Assembly: GCF_000092205.1 (NCBI RefSeq)
Contig: NC_014216.1
Location: 1,116,001-1,180,000 of the forward strand
DNA from: Desulfurivibrio alkaliphilus AHT 2
Lineage (GTDB): Bacteria > Desulfobacterota > Desulfobulbia > Desulfobulbales > Desulfurivibrionaceae
DNA length: 64,000 bases
Reading direction: 5' to 3'
Shown here: piece by piece, positions 16,579 to 24,307 of the stretch
Position numbering within the stretch: position 1 is the first letter of the stretch
Layout of the letters: every line of letters begins with the position of its first letter
The notes under the pieces: model-generated
Database searches by the model: none
Seen by the model: only the letters and a program-made list of their open reading frames with translations
What the model was told of the DNA's origin: nothing
Translations under genes and position numbers: made by a program

Positions 16579-18852
16579 TTACTGCCAGAAGACCCGCTGG
16601 CGGAAAAAGTCGATCAGGCCCTGGCGGCGGGCGGAGATGCGGAACTGCTCCGGAACCAGATCGGAGGTTTCGGCGGCGGTGATGGACATCTTGTATTCGA
16701 TGTGGGGAGCGAAGCGGTTGTCCAGGTACCAGGCGTAAGTTAAGCCGAAGAGCAGGCCCGGGGGGGTGAAACCTTCCCTTCCGTTGACTACCCGGGTAAA
16801 GGTGACCGGCTCTCTGGACGCCCGGCACATGCGGGCCAGTTCCAGGTAGGTCACCAGTTCATCGGTGCTGAAAAATGAATGGCGCTCATCCTCCGGCCGC
16901 AGGGTCAGAGAAAAGATGTAGCCCACCGGCCGGCCGGCGGTGGTCACCGGGCTCTTTTCCTTGGCGGCGGCGTAATTGCCCAGCAAAGACTGGCCCAGGG
17001 CGACCAGGAAAGCGATTTCAAACTGGCGGCTGCCGGGGTTGATATCGGCCCGTACCCGGATCATGCGATCACCGGGCTCGTAAAAGGAGAAAACGTTGTC
17101 CCATTCCTGGCAGCGCCGCCACTGGTCCACCGGCACCAGTTGCAGACCGTCGGCATAATCCAGGTGGGTCGGCAGGATATCCTGGTGGCGCCAGAGGATT
17201 TCCGCCAGTACCGGCTGCCATTGCGGGGCAAGATCCAGTTGCGCCAGCCGCCGGCGCATTTGCCGCCAGCGGCCGTCGGGGGTTTGCTGCCGGGGATTGA
17301 GTAAAAGGGAGGTTTCCTGCCCGGCGGCCTCCTTTGCAGCCACCCCCTCTTGCTCACCGGCGCCCTGCAGCCCCCACAGCACCCGGATCGCCGTCGCCAC
17401 CGCGGCCGGATCATGCTGCAACACCCGGCTGCCGTCGAAGTCGGACTGGGAGGCGATGGCCGCCTCGATGGGGCTGACCCCCAGTCGGCAGACCCGCTCC
17501 CGATCGAGATAAATGGGCACCTTGCCTTCGAGCGCGTAATTCTGCAGAATGCTGCCGGGGATTTCCCGCATGCCCACCACCAGCATCTGCGGGAAAAGAC
17601 CGTTGATCCCACCCGGAATATTGCGATCATAGGCACGCAACAGATCCGACACGTGGTAGCGCCGATCACCTTCGCCGACCACCAGATCCGTTTCACCGGC
17701 CTGAACCCAGAGGTTGGCCAGCAGCACTTTCATGGCCCCCCGGTTTTGCCGTATCGCCGCCGCCAAACCGGGCACCTGAAGCACCGGGATGATGCTGGTA
17801 AACAAACTGCCGGGGGCAAAGAGGATAATATCGGCTTCGGCAATGGCGTCAAAAACCTCCGGCGGCACTTCCGGCCGGCTGGCAAACTCGACATACACCC
17901 GATCCACCGGGCAGCGGCGGCCGGCCTGGGCGGACTTGCTTTCACCGCTGACCAACACCCCGTTGTCGTAAAGGATTTTCAAGGTGGCCGGGGTGGTGGT
18001 GCAGGGCAAGACCGCTTCCGGCAAGGCCCCCAGCATATCGGCCAGGAAACGCAGACCGCCTAAGATCGCCGCCGGCGGCGGTGAAACCGGCTCCCGTCGG
18101 TCGTCGACCTGTGCCATGGCCGGCTGCTGGTAAATGGCGGCCACCAGCAGCAGGTTGCCCAGGCAATGGGCCCGCTGCCGCAAGGGTTGCAAGTGCTCAT
18201 TATTGAAAATCTCCACCAGCAACCAGTACAGGGAACGCTCCATAAAAACCGGCAGGGTGGACAACTCCACCCCGCACTGGGCCAGCACCGCCTCCGGGTT
18301 GTCCGGCAGGCGGTTGAAGCGATGGTTGAACAACTGGTGCAACGCGGCCACCACCTCCAGGGCCTCGATCTCGGTCAGCTCATACTGCTTTTGCAGCTTT
18401 TCCCTGCTGACCGAAGAGAGCATCACATGGCGCAGATCACCCACCGCGATCAGGGGCAGGTCTTTAAGCAGTTCACCGGTTGAGCCGCCGTCATCGGTGA
18501 CGCAAACCACCGAGCGAAGCCTGGGAAAAAGCTGCTTCACCCCGGCAAAGGGGGCCGCCGGCCAGCCGGGATGGCGGCTGTCGCCGCCGATGATATTGGA
18601 CAAGCCGGTGCCGCCACCGAAAACCAGCACTTTGGCCTCGGCGCACGGCACCCGCTTCAAGGTTTCAGTCAACTCCGCCAGAGCGGCGGCGATCTCCGGG
18701 GGAGCGCTGGGCTGGCCGTTCAAGACCAGGGCCAGCAGCTTTTCCGCTCGGTCCTGGTACGGAAGCAGGTCCAGCGGATGAAAGGAAGCGGCTGCAAGCT
18801 GCGCCAACTGGCGCTCTATTGCCCTTTGGGGCGATTGCTCGTTCATCATCAT
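16579..18852 (-). CDS. Long CofD/YvcK-like protein with C-terminal extension
   Basis: The 757-residue protein has a CofD/YvcK-type core with VLVFGGGTGLSNIIGG (about 75-90) and VTDDGGSTGEL. The middle part contains LFAPGSLFTSIIPVLQV and GLFPQMLVV. YvcK proteins are usually about 320 residues; here an N-terminal helical part and a roughly 250-residue C-terminal region, which I do not recognise, are added. The family binds UDP-sugars (YvcK) or transfers phospholactate (CofD); which applies is unknown. The start at 18852 follows the mdh stop by 14 nt, so it is cotranscribed with mdh; ATG is repeated three times there. Confidence 0.8.
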   Translation of the reverse strand: MMMNEQSPQRAIERQLAQLAAASFHPLDLLPYQDRAEKLLALVLNGQPSAPPEIAAALAELTETLKRVPCAEAKVLVFGGGTGLSNIIGGDSRHPGWPAAPFAGVKQLFPRLRSVVCVTDDGGSTGELLKDLPLIAVGDLRHVMLSSVSREKLQKQYELTEIEALEVVAALHQLFNHRFNRLPDNPEAVLAQCGVELSTLPVFMERSLYWLLVEIFNNEHLQPLRQRAHCLGNLLLVAAIYQQPAMAQVDDRREPVSPPPAAILGGLRFLADMLGALPEAVLPCTTTPATLKILYDNGVLVSGESKSAQAGRRCPVDRVYVEFASRPEVPPEVFDAIAEADIILFAPGSLFTSIIPVLQVPGLAAAIRQNRGAMKVLLANLWVQAGETDLVVGEGDRRYHVSDLLRAYDRNIPGGINGLFPQMLVVGMREIPGSILQNYALEGKVPIYLDRERVCRLGVSPIEAAIASQSDFDGSRVLQHDPAAVATAIRVLWGLQGAGEQEGVAAKEAAGQETSLLLNPRQQTPDGRWRQMRRRLAQLDLAPQWQPVLAEILWRHQDILPTHLDYADGLQLVPVDQWRRCQEWDNVFSFYEPGDRMIRVRADINPGSRQFEIAFLVALGQSLLGNYAAAKEKSPVTTAGRPVGYIFSLTLRPEDERHSFFSTDELVTYLELARMCRASREPVTFTRVVNGREGFTPPGLLFGLTYAWYLDNRFAPHIEYKMSITAAETSDLVPEQFRISARRQGLIDFFRQRVFWQ

Positions 18853-18866
18853 CCAAGAAGGTGAAC

Positions 18867-19796
18867 TTAAATCCCTGTAGCGGCCATCTGGCCCCGGACT
18901 ATGGTTTCCGATTCCGCCAGAGCGGCCCGTTCCTCGTCCTGCAAGGGGAACTCGACAATCCGCTCCACCCCGCCGGTACCCAAGACCACCGGCACCCCCA
19001 GGAAGCACCCGGAAATGCCGAACTCCCCTTCCAGCCAGGCGGCGCAGGGCATCACCCGTTTGCTGTCGGTGATGATCGCCTCGGCCATCTCGACGGCCGC
19101 CAGCCCCGGGGTGTAAAAGGCGCTGCCGGTTTTCAGGTGATTGACGATCTCCGCCCCACCATGCTGGGTGCGCTTGACAATGCCGGCAATGGTTTCGGCA
19201 TCCAGCAGATCGCTCACCGGCACCCCGGCCACATTGGCCAGCCGTACCAGGGGCAGCATATTGTCGCCATGGATCCCCATGACCATGGCGTTGACATCCC
19301 GCGGCGCCACCCCCAGGGCCTCGGCCAGGAAGGTCCGGTAGCGGGCGGAATCAAGCACCCCGGCCATCCCGATCACCCGCTGGCGGGGAAAACCGGACAC
19401 CTTGTAGGCGGTATAGACCATGGCATCGATGGGGTTGGTTACCACGATCAGCACCGCGTTGGGGGAGAAGCTTGCCGCCTGTTCGGCACAGCTTTTAACG
19501 ATCTCAACGTTTTTGGCCAGCAGATCATCCCGGCTCATCCCCGGCTTGCGGGCCAGGCCGGCGGTGATGATCACCACGTCGGAATCCACCGAATCACGGT
19601 AGTCATTACTGCCGATCACCCGGCGACTGAAACCATCCACCGGACCGGACTGGAGCAGATCCAGCGCCTTGCCCTGGGGGATTCCTTCCATTACGTCCAG
19701 CAACACAATATCGCCCAGGTTGCGGCTTAAGGCCCAGTGGGCGGCGGTGGCGCCGACATTGCCGGCCCCGATGATGGTTATTTTCGCTCGTCGCAT
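18867..19796 (-). CDS. mdh: Malate dehydrogenase (NAD-dependent, LDH-like)
   Basis: The 309-residue enzyme interconverts malate and oxaloacetate in the cytoplasm. It has the NAD motif GAGNVGATAA, D32 context LLDVMEG, the mobile-loop substrate Args AGLARKPGMSR, TNPIDAMVY, the catalytic MGIHGDNMLP, and a C-terminal GVERIVEFPL. It is of the lactate-dehydrogenase-like type 3. AGGAGAAAACAC precedes ATG. It may work with the pyruvate carboxylase pair at 26-29.5 kb in making C4 acids. Confidence 0.96.
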   Translation of the reverse strand: MRRAKITIIGAGNVGATAAHWALSRNLGDIVLLDVMEGIPQGKALDLLQSGPVDGFSRRVIGSNDYRDSVDSDVVIITAGLARKPGMSRDDLLAKNVEIVKSCAEQAASFSPNAVLIVVTNPIDAMVYTAYKVSGFPRQRVIGMAGVLDSARYRTFLAEALGVAPRDVNAMVMGIHGDNMLPLVRLANVAGVPVSDLLDAETIAGIVKRTQHGGAEIVNHLKTGSAFYTPGLAAVEMAEAIITDSKRVMPCAAWLEGEFGISGCFLGVPVVLGTGGVERIVEFPLQDEERAALAESETIVRGQMAATGI

Positions 19797-20040: not shown

Positions 20041-20802
20041 TTACTCCCTGAACAACTCCTCCGCCCGTTTCAGATCGGCCGGGGTGTCTACCTCGACTGA
20101 ATCGTGCTCGGTGAGTACCACCTGGATGGTGTAACCGTACTCCAGTGCCCGCAGTTGTTCCAGCTTTTCAAAGTATTCCCACTCCCCTTCCGGCAGACCT
20201 ACGAAGGTCAGCAGGAAGCCTTTTCGGTAGGCATAAAACCCCAGGTGCTTGTAATAGGTGGGGCTGCCGCCGTCGGGGTCGCGCTGATGCGGGATGGGGG
20301 AACGGGAAAAATACAAGGCCCGGCCGTGGCGGTCGAATACTGTTTTGACGTGGTTGGGGTCGTTGATCTCTTCGGGCCGGATGATCCGGTAGATCAGGGT
20401 GGCCATGGGCAGGGCCGGATCAGCCAGCAGGGGGCCGGCCACCTGCCCCACCACCGCCGGATCAAAAAGCGGCTGGTCGCCCTGGATATTGACCACCACA
20501 TCATGCTCATCGATATCCATGATGGTGACCGCTTCGGCCAGGCGATCGGTACCCGAAACATGATCGCTGCGGGTCATCACCGCCTCGCCGCCGAAAGCGC
20601 GCACACAGTCGGCGATCCGCTGATCATCGGTGGCCACCGCCACCCGGGAGAGCATGGGCACCGCCTTGGCCCGCTCATAAACCCGCTGGATCATGGGTTT
20701 ACCCTTGATCAACGCCAGGGGTTTACCCTCAAAACGGTTGGATTGGTAGCGGGCGGGAATCACCGCCACCACTTGGGGCTGTTTTTTATCTGCGGAATCC
20801 AT
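20041..20802 (-). CDS. kdsB: CMP-Kdo / CMP-Kdo8N synthetase
   Basis: The 253-residue cytidylyltransferase activates an octulosonate with CTP for lipid A core assembly. It starts VVAVIPARYQSNRFEGKPL, has the NIQGDQPL motif with metal-binding Asp, HLGFYAYRK and the C-terminal VEVDTPADL. The length is normal. With kdnA and kdnB 1-2 kb away, the preferred substrate may be 8-amino-3,8-dideoxy-octulosonate (Kdo8N), as known for the Shewanella enzyme. AGAGGAAC precedes ATG. It is divergent from rsmJ. Confidence 0.94.
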   Translation of the reverse strand: MDSADKKQPQVVAVIPARYQSNRFEGKPLALIKGKPMIQRVYERAKAVPMLSRVAVATDDQRIADCVRAFGGEAVMTRSDHVSGTDRLAEAVTIMDIDEHDVVVNIQGDQPLFDPAVVGQVAGPLLADPALPMATLIYRIIRPEEINDPNHVKTVFDRHGRALYFSRSPIPHQRDPDGGSPTYYKHLGFYAYRKGFLLTFVGLPEGEWEYFEKLEQLRALEYGYTIQVVLTEHDSVEVDTPADLKRAEELFRE

Positions 20803-20864
20803 TATTTTGTTCCTCTAACCTGCCGAGACTTTTCGTCAAATCAAATTATGAACCGGATCCAACC

Positions 20865-21668
20865 GTGACCAGCCAACTTGCCGTAACAGCAACCGACCCT
20901 TCCCGGCTGGACGAGGCCCGCCGACTGGCCGAAGCTTTGGGGCTGGTGCTGTACAACCCGGCCGACCGGGAAAATGACCCGCCATCCCCGCCATCTTTGT
21001 TACTGCAATTGACCCCGGAGCGCCTGGAGCTGCGCGCCACCGACCAATTGGCTCTCAAACCGGTGTACGTCGATTTCGCCAGTGAGCAGCTTAACTATCG
21101 CCGCCGCCGGGGAGGCGGGCGGCGGGAACAACTGGCCCGCGCTGTGGGGGTCAAGGGCAGCAGGGGCAGCAAACCGCCCACGGTGCTGGACGCCACCGCC
21201 GGATTGGGCCGGGACGCCTTTATCCTGGCCGCCTTGGGCTGCCGGGTACAGATGCTGGAACGCTCCCCCGCCGTCCATGCCCTGCTGGCCGACGGCCTGC
21301 ACCGTGCCCTGGCCGATCCGGCCATCGCCGCCGTGATCGGGGAAAACCTGCAACTGCTGGCGGGCGATGCCCTGGCTTTTCTGCAACAATCACCGGCCCC
21401 GGTGGCTGATGTAATCTATCTGGATCCCATGTTCCCGGAACGCGGCAAAAGTGCCCTGGTCAAAAAGGAACTGCGCCTGCTGCGCCTGCTCGCCGGTGAC
21501 GACCCCGACGCCGGGCAACTGCTGACCGCGGCCCTGCCCAAAGCCGGCCGCCGGGTGGTGGTCAAACGCCCCCGCCACGCCCCCAGCCTGCCCGGGCCGC
21601 CCCCAAGTTACTCCCTGCCAGGCAAAAGCAACCGCTTTGATGTCTATTTGATCAACAGTAAGCGTTAA
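20865..21668 (+). CDS. rsmJ: 16S rRNA (guanine-N2) methyltransferase RsmJ-like
   Basis: The 267-residue protein has the RsmJ/DUF548 features: ERLELR near residue 50, KPVYVDF, a basic loop YRRRRGGGRREQLARAVG, the SAM motif VLDATAGLGRDAF, and YLDPMFPERGKSA with the catalytic DPMFP. E. coli RsmJ methylates G1516 of 16S rRNA. It begins with GTG without a clear ribosome-binding site and sits inside the Kdo8N gene group on the opposite strand. The function is secure at family level. Confidence 0.92.
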   Translation: MTSQLAVTATDPSRLDEARRLAEALGLVLYNPADRENDPPSPPSLLLQLTPERLELRATDQLALKPVYVDFASEQLNYRRRRGGGRREQLARAVGVKGSRGSKPPTVLDATAGLGRDAFILAALGCRVQMLERSPAVHALLADGLHRALADPAIAAVIGENLQLLAGDALAFLQQSPAPVADVIYLDPMFPERGKSALVKKELRLLRLLAGDDPDAGQLLTAALPKAGRRVVVKRPRHAPSLPGPPPSYSLPGKSNRFDVYLINSKR

Positions 21669-21715
21669 CCAAGGGAACCAACTTGCCGGTTACCGGCCTA
21701 ACGGGCCGTAATCGT

Positions 21716-22912
21716 TCAGCAAGCCGCTTTCACCGCCTCAGCAATCTGTTCCAGGCGCTCGTCACTTAACTTGATCGGCACCGGGTAGACCAGCAGGCGG
21801 TCCATGATGGCCGCCGATTTGGGCAGGGCCTGGGGATCGTACTGCACTCGGCGGCGGCCGTCGGCTTCCTTGAAGGGCCAACCGCTTTTAGCCAGGGTTG
21901 AGCCGGCCAGCAGATGTTCCCACTTGGGGTAGTAGTGCCAGGTGTTATTGGCGAAATAGACCGCCCCGGCGCCGTTCGCCGCCAGGGTTTCGTTTACTTT
22001 CAGGGCAGCGGCGGCATCGGGCAGGAAAAAGGCCAGGAAAGAGGCGTTGTCGCCGTCGGGGTCCAGCACGGTGCGGAAGCTCACCCCCGGCAATTGGCTT
22101 ACCACCTGGCGCAGGGCCGCCTTGTTGCGGCGCTGGGATTCGATGATGCCATCAAGCTTGGCCAGTTGGGCCAGGCCGATGGCCCCCTGCAGCTCCATCA
22201 TCCGGTAGTTGAAGCCGATGAAGCTGCGCCCCTCGCCGCCCCGACCGCCGGGGTTGGGCACATGATCGTGGCCATGGTCCTGGTACTCGCTCATCCGTCG
22301 CCACAACGCTTCATCGTCGGTGACGATCATCCCCCCTTCGCCGGTGGTGATGGTCTTGACCGGGTCGAAGGAGAAGGTGCCGCAAAGACCAAACGAGCCA
22401 CACTTGCGGCCATTGATGGCCGCTCCCGGCGCCTGGGCGGTGTCTTCCAGCACCGGGATGCCATGGCGGTCGGCGATGGCCATGATCTCTTCCATCCGGG
22501 CCGGAGCCCCCATCATGTGCACCGGGATGATGGCCCGGGTGCGGGGGGTGATTTTTTCTTCCAGATCGGCCGGGTCCAGGTTCAGGGTGTCGTCCACCTC
22601 GGCAAAGACCGGTACTGCCCCGACATCGAAGATGGCCTCCCAGGTGGCGACGAAGGTAAAACCCTGGGTAATCACCTCATCGCCGGGCCCCACCCCCATG
22701 GCCGCCAGGGCCACCTTGAGGGCGGCGGTGCCGGAGGTCACCGCCTGGGCGTGGCCAACCCCGCAGTAACGGGCAAACTCTTCTTCAAAGCGGCGCACCT
22801 TGTAGATACCGCGTCGCTCACTGGGGAACTCGTAGCGAAACAGCACTCCGGTATCCAGCACCTCGGCGATTTCCTTCTTCTCTTCGGCACCAAACACTTC
22901 GAAACCAGGCAT
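21716..22912 (-). CDS. kdnA: 8-amino-3,8-dideoxy-octulosonate transaminase (KdnA-like)
   Basis: The 398-residue protein is a PLP enzyme of the DegT/DnrJ/EryC1 family. The PLP Lys lies in FDPVKTITTGEGG; the LEDTAQAPGA and GTAALKVALAAMG segments match the family. The N-terminus MPGFEVFGAEEKKEI, followed by DTGVLFRYEF, resembles KdnA, which aminates 8-keto-Kdo with glutamate. A KdnB-like dehydrogenase lies just upstream on the same strand (85 nt gap) and kdsB downstream. Alternative: another sugar aminotransferase, but the neighbourhood argues against it. Confidence 0.86.
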   Translation of the reverse strand: MPGFEVFGAEEKKEIAEVLDTGVLFRYEFPSERRGIYKVRRFEEEFARYCGVGHAQAVTSGTAALKVALAAMGVGPGDEVITQGFTFVATWEAIFDVGAVPVFAEVDDTLNLDPADLEEKITPRTRAIIPVHMMGAPARMEEIMAIADRHGIPVLEDTAQAPGAAINGRKCGSFGLCGTFSFDPVKTITTGEGGMIVTDDEALWRRMSEYQDHGHDHVPNPGGRGGEGRSFIGFNYRMMELQGAIGLAQLAKLDGIIESQRRNKAALRQVVSQLPGVSFRTVLDPDGDNASFLAFFLPDAAAALKVNETLAANGAGAVYFANNTWHYYPKWEHLLAGSTLAKSGWPFKEADGRRRVQYDPQALPKSAAIMDRLLVYPVPIKLSDERLEQIAEAVKAAC

Positions 22913-22997
22913 TCTCTTCCTCCCAGGCTCTTTATCGGCTTACCGGCCACCAGCCGGCCTCGCCGGGATTAGCAGATTATACGGTTGCAGCAATCGA

Positions 22998-24170
22998 CTA
23001 CTCCCAGCCGACCAAAGCTTCTTCATAAATTGCCATCACCTCGTCATGGTTGGGCCGGCGGGGGTTGTTGGCCACGGGCCGGGCGACGGTGAGGGCGATT
23101 TTGGCCATCTCCGGGATATCTTCCCGGGGAATTCCCAACTCTTGCAGACTGCGGGGAATGCCGACATCCTGGTTCAGGTTCCAAACCGCTTCCACCGAGG
23201 CCTGGGCCGCTTCCCGTAAATTCAACTCCGAGGTATCCACCCCGAACATCTCGGCCAAAGTGGCAAAACGCTCCGGGGCGCCGATGAGGTTATAAGCCAT
23301 GACATAGGGCAGCAGCACCGCATTGGCCAGACCGTGGGGAATCTGGTGCATACCACCCAAAGGGTAGGCCATGGCGTGCACCAGGCCGACGCCGGCGGTG
23401 GCCAGGGCCTTGCCCGCCAGCAGGCTGCCCATCAGCATGGCGCTGCGCGCCTCCAGGTTATCGCCGTGGGCGTAAGCCTTGCCCAGATTGCCGGCGATAA
23501 GATCAATGGCCTCCAGCGCGTACATGTCGGAGATGGTATGGGCCTGGGTGGAAACGTAGGCCTCCAGGGCGTGGGTCAGGGCGTCAATGCCGGTGGCGGC
23601 GGTGACCTGCGACGGCATGCTCAGGGTCAAAGCCGGGTCCAGAATGGCTGCCTCGGGATAGAGCGGGTCACCATTCATCCCGGCTTTGGAGCCGGTTTTT
23701 TCATTGATGAAAACGGCGGTGAAGGTCATCTCGGCCCCGGTGCCGGCGGTGGTAGGGATCATGATCTTGGGCACGCCGGCCTTGGCGATTTTCCCCAGCC
23801 CGATATAATCCTCGGCCTTGCCGCCGTTGGTCAGCAAAATGCTGACCGCCTTGGCCACATCCATGGCCGAGCCGCCGCCGACCCCCACCACGCAATCGCA
23901 TTTTTTCTGTTTGGCCAGCTTGGCCCCAGCGTCGGCCAGTTTCAGGCCCGGCTCGGGAGCAACTTGATCATAGACGGTAAAAGGCACCTTTTGCCCTTTA
24001 AGCGAAGCGCCGACCTTTTCCAGCAAACCGGCCGCCGCTACCCCGGGGTCGATCACCAGCAAAACCCGGCTGCCTCCCAATTCCCGCACCATGGCGGCCA
24101 GATCGTTGATACTGTCCACCCCGAAGCGAATCCGGGTGGGCTGGGTGACGGTAAAATTGTTTTCGCGCAT
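22998..24170 (-). CDS. kdnB: Kdo 8-oxidase, iron/zinc alcohol dehydrogenase family (KdnB-like)
   Basis: The 390-residue protein is an Fe-ADH family dehydrogenase with the NAD motif GVGGGSAMDVAKA, IPTTAGTGAEMT, and the metal ligands in GIDALTHALEAY and GLVHAMAYPLGGMHQIPHG. KdnB oxidises the C8 hydroxyl of Kdo before KdnA transamination. Family members otherwise include many alcohol dehydrogenases, so the call relies on adjacency to kdnA and kdsB. The start at 24170 is preceded by AAGGAT at 6 nt; an upstream in-frame start at 24239 has no such site. Confidence 0.83.
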   Translation of the reverse strand: MRENNFTVTQPTRIRFGVDSINDLAAMVRELGGSRVLLVIDPGVAAAGLLEKVGASLKGQKVPFTVYDQVAPEPGLKLADAGAKLAKQKKCDCVVGVGGGSAMDVAKAVSILLTNGGKAEDYIGLGKIAKAGVPKIMIPTTAGTGAEMTFTAVFINEKTGSKAGMNGDPLYPEAAILDPALTLSMPSQVTAATGIDALTHALEAYVSTQAHTISDMYALEAIDLIAGNLGKAYAHGDNLEARSAMLMGSLLAGKALATAGVGLVHAMAYPLGGMHQIPHGLANAVLLPYVMAYNLIGAPERFATLAEMFGVDTSELNLREAAQASVEAVWNLNQDVGIPRSLQELGIPREDIPEMAKIALTVARPVANNPRRPNHDEVMAIYEEALVGWE

Positions 24171-24307
24171 GTTCAAATCCTTAACCTGTAATGGGGAAAT
24201 TGGTTTACAAAACAACCAACGGCTGGTTATCTGCAACAATGTTCACCGCCGAAGCGGCGGTGCAAGTCGCGAGTTTAACGTAGCTTCACTTGGATTACAC
24301 GCAAAAG

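Follow-up and report, generated by a model that had tools for sequence, protein, structure and literature searches.

A putative Kdo8N pathway with a dehydrogenase other than KdnB in a Desulfobacterota genome

The question raised by this locus is whether a type-III alcohol dehydrogenase (Fe-ADH), an aminotransferase and a CMP-Kdo synthetase (KdsB) that are encoded close together make the amino sugar 8-amino-3,8-dideoxy-manno-octulosonate (Kdo8N), and if so, which type of enzyme oxidizes Kdo before it is aminated. The window, which is the whole stretch of DNA analysed (64,000 bases), corresponds to positions 1116001-1180000 in a genome of 3,097,763 bases, assembled as one contig, that we take to be Desulfurivibrio alkaliphilus AHT2 (Desulfobulbales, Thermodesulfobacteriota). 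The KdnB enzyme of Shewanella oneidensis is reportedly a molecular-oxygen-dependent oxidase, and its later crystal structure is said to contain tightly bound NAD(H). The KdnA-KdnB-KdsB pathway to Kdo8N in that organism was reportedly described by Gattis et al. in 2013. KdnB is named an '8-oxidase' in the PDB, and PMC5125639, which uses the same name, lists no other characterised enzyme in its type-III ADH subfamily. Kdo8N itself has been described as a hallmark of Shewanella (PMC6357163), and in the literature searched we found no description of it outside that genus. We propose with considerable confidence that the Fe-ADH of the window is a non-orthologous Kdo 8-dehydrogenase that replaces KdnB and that, together with KdnA and KdsB, it would form a pathway to CMP-Kdo8N.

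Gene order and Kdo supply

The genes of interest are listed in Table 1, and the coordinates and family matches confirm the arrangement given by an earlier reading made from the sequence alone (hereafter the sequence-only reading), with three genes on the reverse strand and rsmJ on the forward strand. The ATG of the Fe-ADH gene has a good ribosome site (AAGGA), although an upstream TTG at 24239 could also open the reading frame (22998-24239), while the ATG of kdnA has GGAGG immediately 5' and the two genes are separated by 85 bases. Because rsmJ, which lies between kdnA and kdsB, converges on the former and diverges from the latter, co-transcription of kdsB with the other two genes is not required; Fe-ADH, kdnA and kdsB share one strand and do not clearly form a single operon. 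The rsmJ gene is a bystander whose place between kdnA and kdsB is conserved in the window's taxonomic order. The clustering itself is far above chance, as 44 of the 71 genomes with KdnA have the Fe-ADH next to it and kdsB is within the same locus in 26 of the 40 KdnA loci examined. Elsewhere in the window, a reverse-strand ORF of 809 amino acids (16579-19008) has a CofD (YvcK-type) domain with long stretches lacking a match at both ends, and its called GTG start may sit too far upstream.

Table 1. Features of the locus, with positions in the window and family matches.
Feature	Position	Strand	Family match
kdsB, CMP-Kdo / CMP-Kdo8N synthetase	20041-20802	-	NF003952, 318 bits (cut-off 193)
rsmJ, 16S rRNA m2G1516 methyltransferase	20865-21668	+	PF04445, 271 bits
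kdnA, PLP-dependent 8-amino-3,8-dideoxy-manno-octulosonate (Kdo8N) transaminase	21716-22912	-	DegT_DnrJ_EryC1, 321 bits
type-III Fe-ADH, proposed Kdo 8-dehydrogenase	22998-24170	-	Fe-ADH family, 171 and 208 bits

The genome encodes KdsA, KdsD, one WaaA and one KdsB, which is its only CTP_transf_3 protein and belongs to the CMP-Kdo synthetase family. A signature for Kdo8N was sought by comparing the KdsBs of genomes with and without KdnA and none was clear; the residues that differ, a serine in D-S-x-E-V-D-T-P and a Y/F after ATL, do so weakly and in a manner confounded by phylogeny. A single KdsB with no clear signature of Kdo8N specificity would also fit an arrangement, which we consider unlikely, in which Kdo8N is made but enters only a minor or conditional glycan, with the core carrying mostly Kdo and KdsB accepting both sugars. 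Against this, only one WaaA was found in the genome and the inner-core residue of Shewanella is Kdo8N (PMC6357163). The output of the locus that we favour would be CMP-Kdo8N destined for the inner core of the lipopolysaccharide (LPS).

The aminotransferase and its partner dehydrogenase

The sequence-only reading described the aminotransferase as KdnA-like, and this is borne out by structure matches and by residues. Among solved structures it matches S. oneidensis KdnA best (5k8b, 357 bits, residues 1-396), while the next family scores 199 bits, and it falls far under the cut-offs of every NCBIfam aminotransferase model that it matches, none of which is a KdnA model. The alignment with characterised KdnA that the same reading had suggested gives 46% identity to the S. 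oneidensis enzyme, the closest characterised relative over the full length, with the signature residues kept. These include the PLP lysine K186, the stretch D212-H-G-H-D-H217, R224 and N323, and of the residues that distinguish KdnA, E92, D183, H213, H215, H217, R224 and N323, among others, are kept in both KdnA groups and absent from other DegT proteins. The two groups, which are ~45% identical to each other, emerge from a tree of 119 proteins, one comprising Shewanella and Bacteroidota and the other the window and other Desulfobacterota. The window protein groups with the KdnAs and apart from other DegT proteins, although this is a quick tree in which a few DegT rows with long branches are placed on the same side as the KdnAs, in a branch of their own. 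As judged from sequence, the aminotransferase of the window is KdnA.

The dehydrogenase was likewise described as KdnB-like, which holds at the level of the superfamily and fails for KdnB itself. Its best PDB matches are an NAD-dependent methanol dehydrogenase (281.8 bits) and a 1,3-propanediol oxidoreductase (277 bits), and its closest solved relatives, the FucO / DhaT / methanol dehydrogenase group, score 240-282 bits compared with only 94.6 bits for KdnB (5k8c). Its identity to KdnB is ~30%. The KdnB that served as the comparison sequence, from Shewanella fodinae, scores 692 bits to 5k8c. In the window's genome there is no match to KdnB at 1e-50, and the other Fe-ADHs that match the window enzyme are only ~30% identical to it. 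The possibility that the Fe-ADH is a KdnB orthologue was therefore rejected, given these scores and its position outside the KdnB clade, which a long branch with full support separates from the remaining Fe-ADHs. A better match to an unrelated ADH family, which the sequence-only reading had named as evidence against itself, is thus what we find for the dehydrogenase, and because the enzyme comes from a type-III ADH clade other than that of KdnB, the cluster is not simply that of Shewanella.

The metal ligands (D196, H200, H265, H279) and the NAD motif (GGGSxxD, residues 98-104, with D41) are readily identified, and the metal tetrad and GGGSxxD are present in all KdnA-associated Fe-ADHs, but they are common to all type-III ADHs sampled and hence are not specific to KdnB. 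The pocket of the window enzyme contains E73, T151, V153 and N166, and three of these pocket or near-pocket positions largely separate the KdnA-linked Fe-ADHs and KdnBs from other Fe-ADHs: E73 is found in 37/37, 31/31 and 4/16 of the three sets, respectively, T151 in 37/37, 31/31 and 0/16, and N166 in 36/37, 23/31 and 0/16. E73 and T151 align with N71 and N151 of FucO, and N151 of FucO lines the substrate site such that its replacement shifts specificity (PMC10324492). The pocket residues common to the Fe-ADH and KdnB may represent either convergence or shared retention. In a more careful tree, the KdnA-associated Fe-ADHs lie on one side of a branch that separates them from the closest non-KdnA Fe-ADHs with support of 100/99, but as this tree has no outgroup the branch alone does not prove that they are a single clade.

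Partner dehydrogenases across the phylum

KdnA, KdnB and the Fe-ADH of the window each served as a query against one set of 297 genomes of the phylum, with a linked Fe-ADH defined as one within 3 kb of KdnA. Of the 71 genomes that contain KdnA, 44 have a linked Fe-ADH but lack KdnB, 21 have KdnB without a linked Fe-ADH, six have neither, and none has both. All 21 genomes with KdnB contain KdnA (hypergeometric 7e-15), and KdnB and the linked Fe-ADH are mutually exclusive (Fisher 4e-15). Five of the six genomes with neither partner are explained by relocation or by contig ends: in two an Fe-ADH orthologue is directly beside kdsB on another contig, in one (G015; L133, L191) the orthologue has moved 50 kb from the kdnA-kdsB pair, and in two kdnA is at a contig end. 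The sixth (G146), in which neither dehydrogenase was detected, is unexplained. Similarly, two Desulfobulbaceae-type genomes in which kdnA has no adjacent dehydrogenase encode an Fe-ADH orthologue elsewhere (70 and 66%). The best reading of this distribution is that most KdnA-bearing members of the phylum would use the window-type Fe-ADH and a minority true KdnB. One genome, G083 (L142; contigs C27 and C60; 8% contamination), has two KdnAs (58 and 52% to the window's) and one true KdnB, and may be a mixed bin.

Since both of the above probabilities ignore shared ancestry, more weight is given to an exchange of the dehydrogenase within one family (f2) of the window's order. All six species of this family have a KdnA that is 65-69% identical to that of the window and nested within its KdnA group, and a second close KdnA was not found in any of them. 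At 1e-85 the window Fe-ADH has no match in these species, and all six have instead a true KdnB, encoded alone and away from kdnA, that is 58-62% identical to the Shewanella enzyme and that the tree places beside those of Shewanella and Sulfurivirga. The kdnA-rsmJ-kdsB order is kept in the three f2 loci examined, where the genes upstream of kdnA are panC, a TPR gene and xseA, with no dehydrogenase gene among them. This appears to be a clean case of non-orthologous replacement of the dehydrogenase within one order with kdnA retained. Because KdnB makes the 8-oxo sugar and the f2 genomes have no other close KdnA, the substrate of the window-type KdnA is most likely 8-oxo-Kdo, an argument that carries our main conclusion and depends mainly on this one family to connect the two partner types.

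The f2 genomes also bear on the idea that the Fe-ADH-KdnA pair makes some other amino sugar, for example from another octulosonate or a heptose, with a KdnA substrate that is related and not identical. The two KdnA groups do mostly follow different dehydrogenases and are only ~45% identical to each other, which speaks for this idea, yet the sole close KdnA of f2 belongs to the window's group and co-occurs with true KdnB, the KdnA-specific residues are common to both groups, and kdsB is linked, so that we regard it as improbable. It is very unlikely that KdnA is real but that the adjacent Fe-ADH is a general ADH outside the pathway, with some other unrecognised enzyme oxidizing Kdo, although type-III ADHs are numerous and often promiscuous and the window enzyme is matched best in the PDB by methanol and 1,3-propanediol dehydrogenases. 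Against it, the Fe-ADHs associated with KdnA fall into one supported group, do not co-occur with KdnB when linked to KdnA, have pocket residues in common with KdnB, and persist in genomes where linkage has been lost. Hence the evidence points to the Fe-ADH as the enzyme that would perform the step of KdnB.

A replacement dehydrogenase suited to anaerobes is an attractive notion. However, a rule of KdnB in aerobes and Fe-ADH in anaerobes was rejected, and oxygen alone fails to explain the distribution, because true KdnB is beside KdnA in MAGs of anaerobic lineages that include Prevotellaceae (L062), Desulfosudis (L040) and many Desulfobacterota. Outside the Desulfobacterota, a Synergistaceae MAG (L046:3136-6459) has kdsB, a window-type Fe-ADH and kdnA as consecutive genes, suggesting transfer of the whole module. 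KdnAs of the Shewanella group are common in Flavobacteriia, Chitinophagaceae and other Bacteroidota (loci L041-L075), often as a lone gene, and true KdnB was found elsewhere in 4/4 of the genomes with a lone kdnA that were searched. Kdo8N may be widespread in Bacteroidota too. In Leptospira interrogans, a gene annotated as kdnB, which could be true KdnB or a generic name for an Fe-ADH, is listed as occurring only in a severe-disease isolate (PMC8510873). A KdnB-like dehydrogenase that is ~42% identical to KdnB and keeps E73, T151 and N166 (L217:2998-5424, genome G165) forms a pair with a DegT aminotransferase in which the KdnA signature residues are missing, and other genomes of its genus (code g70) contain related KdnB matches of 40-44%. 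The L217 pair is possibly a third, different pair for aldehyde amination.

Proposed pathway and comparison with known enzymes

In the pathway that we propose, the Fe-ADH would oxidize free Kdo at its C8 hydroxyl, yielding the aldehyde in a reaction that probably uses NAD+ and a divalent metal. KdnA would then aminate this aldehyde, with glutamate as the presumed amino donor by analogy with S. oneidensis, and this amination to Kdo8N is strongly supported by the sequence comparisons. The single KdsB would activate Kdo8N with CTP and the single WaaA would attach it to lipid A, provided that both tolerate the amino sugar. The prediction of Kdo8N as the product in the sequence-only reading is probably right, judging from the sequences and their signature residues, the order of the genes and the distribution of partners. 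The acid resistance and altered surface charge that the same reading connects with the modification in Shewanella would be predicted consequences here. What is new here is that the first enzyme of the pathway is likely a non-orthologous variant and not KdnB.

More broadly, we consider it reasonably probable that a second, distantly related and probably NAD-dependent Kdo 8-dehydrogenase sustains Kdo8N synthesis in much of an anaerobic phylum, with E73, T151 and N166 shared with KdnB and mostly absent from other type-III ADHs, and in that case LPS containing Kdo8N would be common outside Shewanella. If true, about a quarter of the sampled Desulfobacterota species and several Bacteroidota carry Kdo8N genes. 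That anaerobes would carry out this step with another dehydrogenase, and likewise that true KdnB occurs in Prevotellaceae and Desulfosudis, makes the dispute over oxygen versus NAD(H) in KdnB directly testable. The exchange in f2 with kdnA kept would represent non-orthologous replacement in LPS biosynthesis, with T151, N166 and E73 as candidate specificity residues.

The locus resembles the S. oneidensis pathway (5k8b, 5k8c) in its KdnA signature, an adjacent type-III metal-dependent ADH, a nearby KdsB, a full supply of Kdo and the sequence of steps, which here is proposed from the genes. It differs in that the dehydrogenase is of another type-III ADH clade and is encoded upstream of kdnA, and in that rsmJ separates kdnA from kdsB, while in Shewanella fodinae the gene order is kdnA-kdnB-kdsB. 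KdnB (FeADH3, cd08184, '3-deoxy-alpha-D-manno-octulosonate 8-oxidase') has the same fold family, D/H/H/H ligands, NAD motif and pocket residues (E73, T151, V153, N166) as the window Fe-ADH, from which it differs by its ~30% identity and the fully supported long branch between them. The FucO / DhaT / methanol dehydrogenase group includes the closest solved relatives of the window enzyme, but where FucO has N71, N151 and V166 the window Fe-ADH has E, T and N, and the genomic partner of the latter is KdnA.
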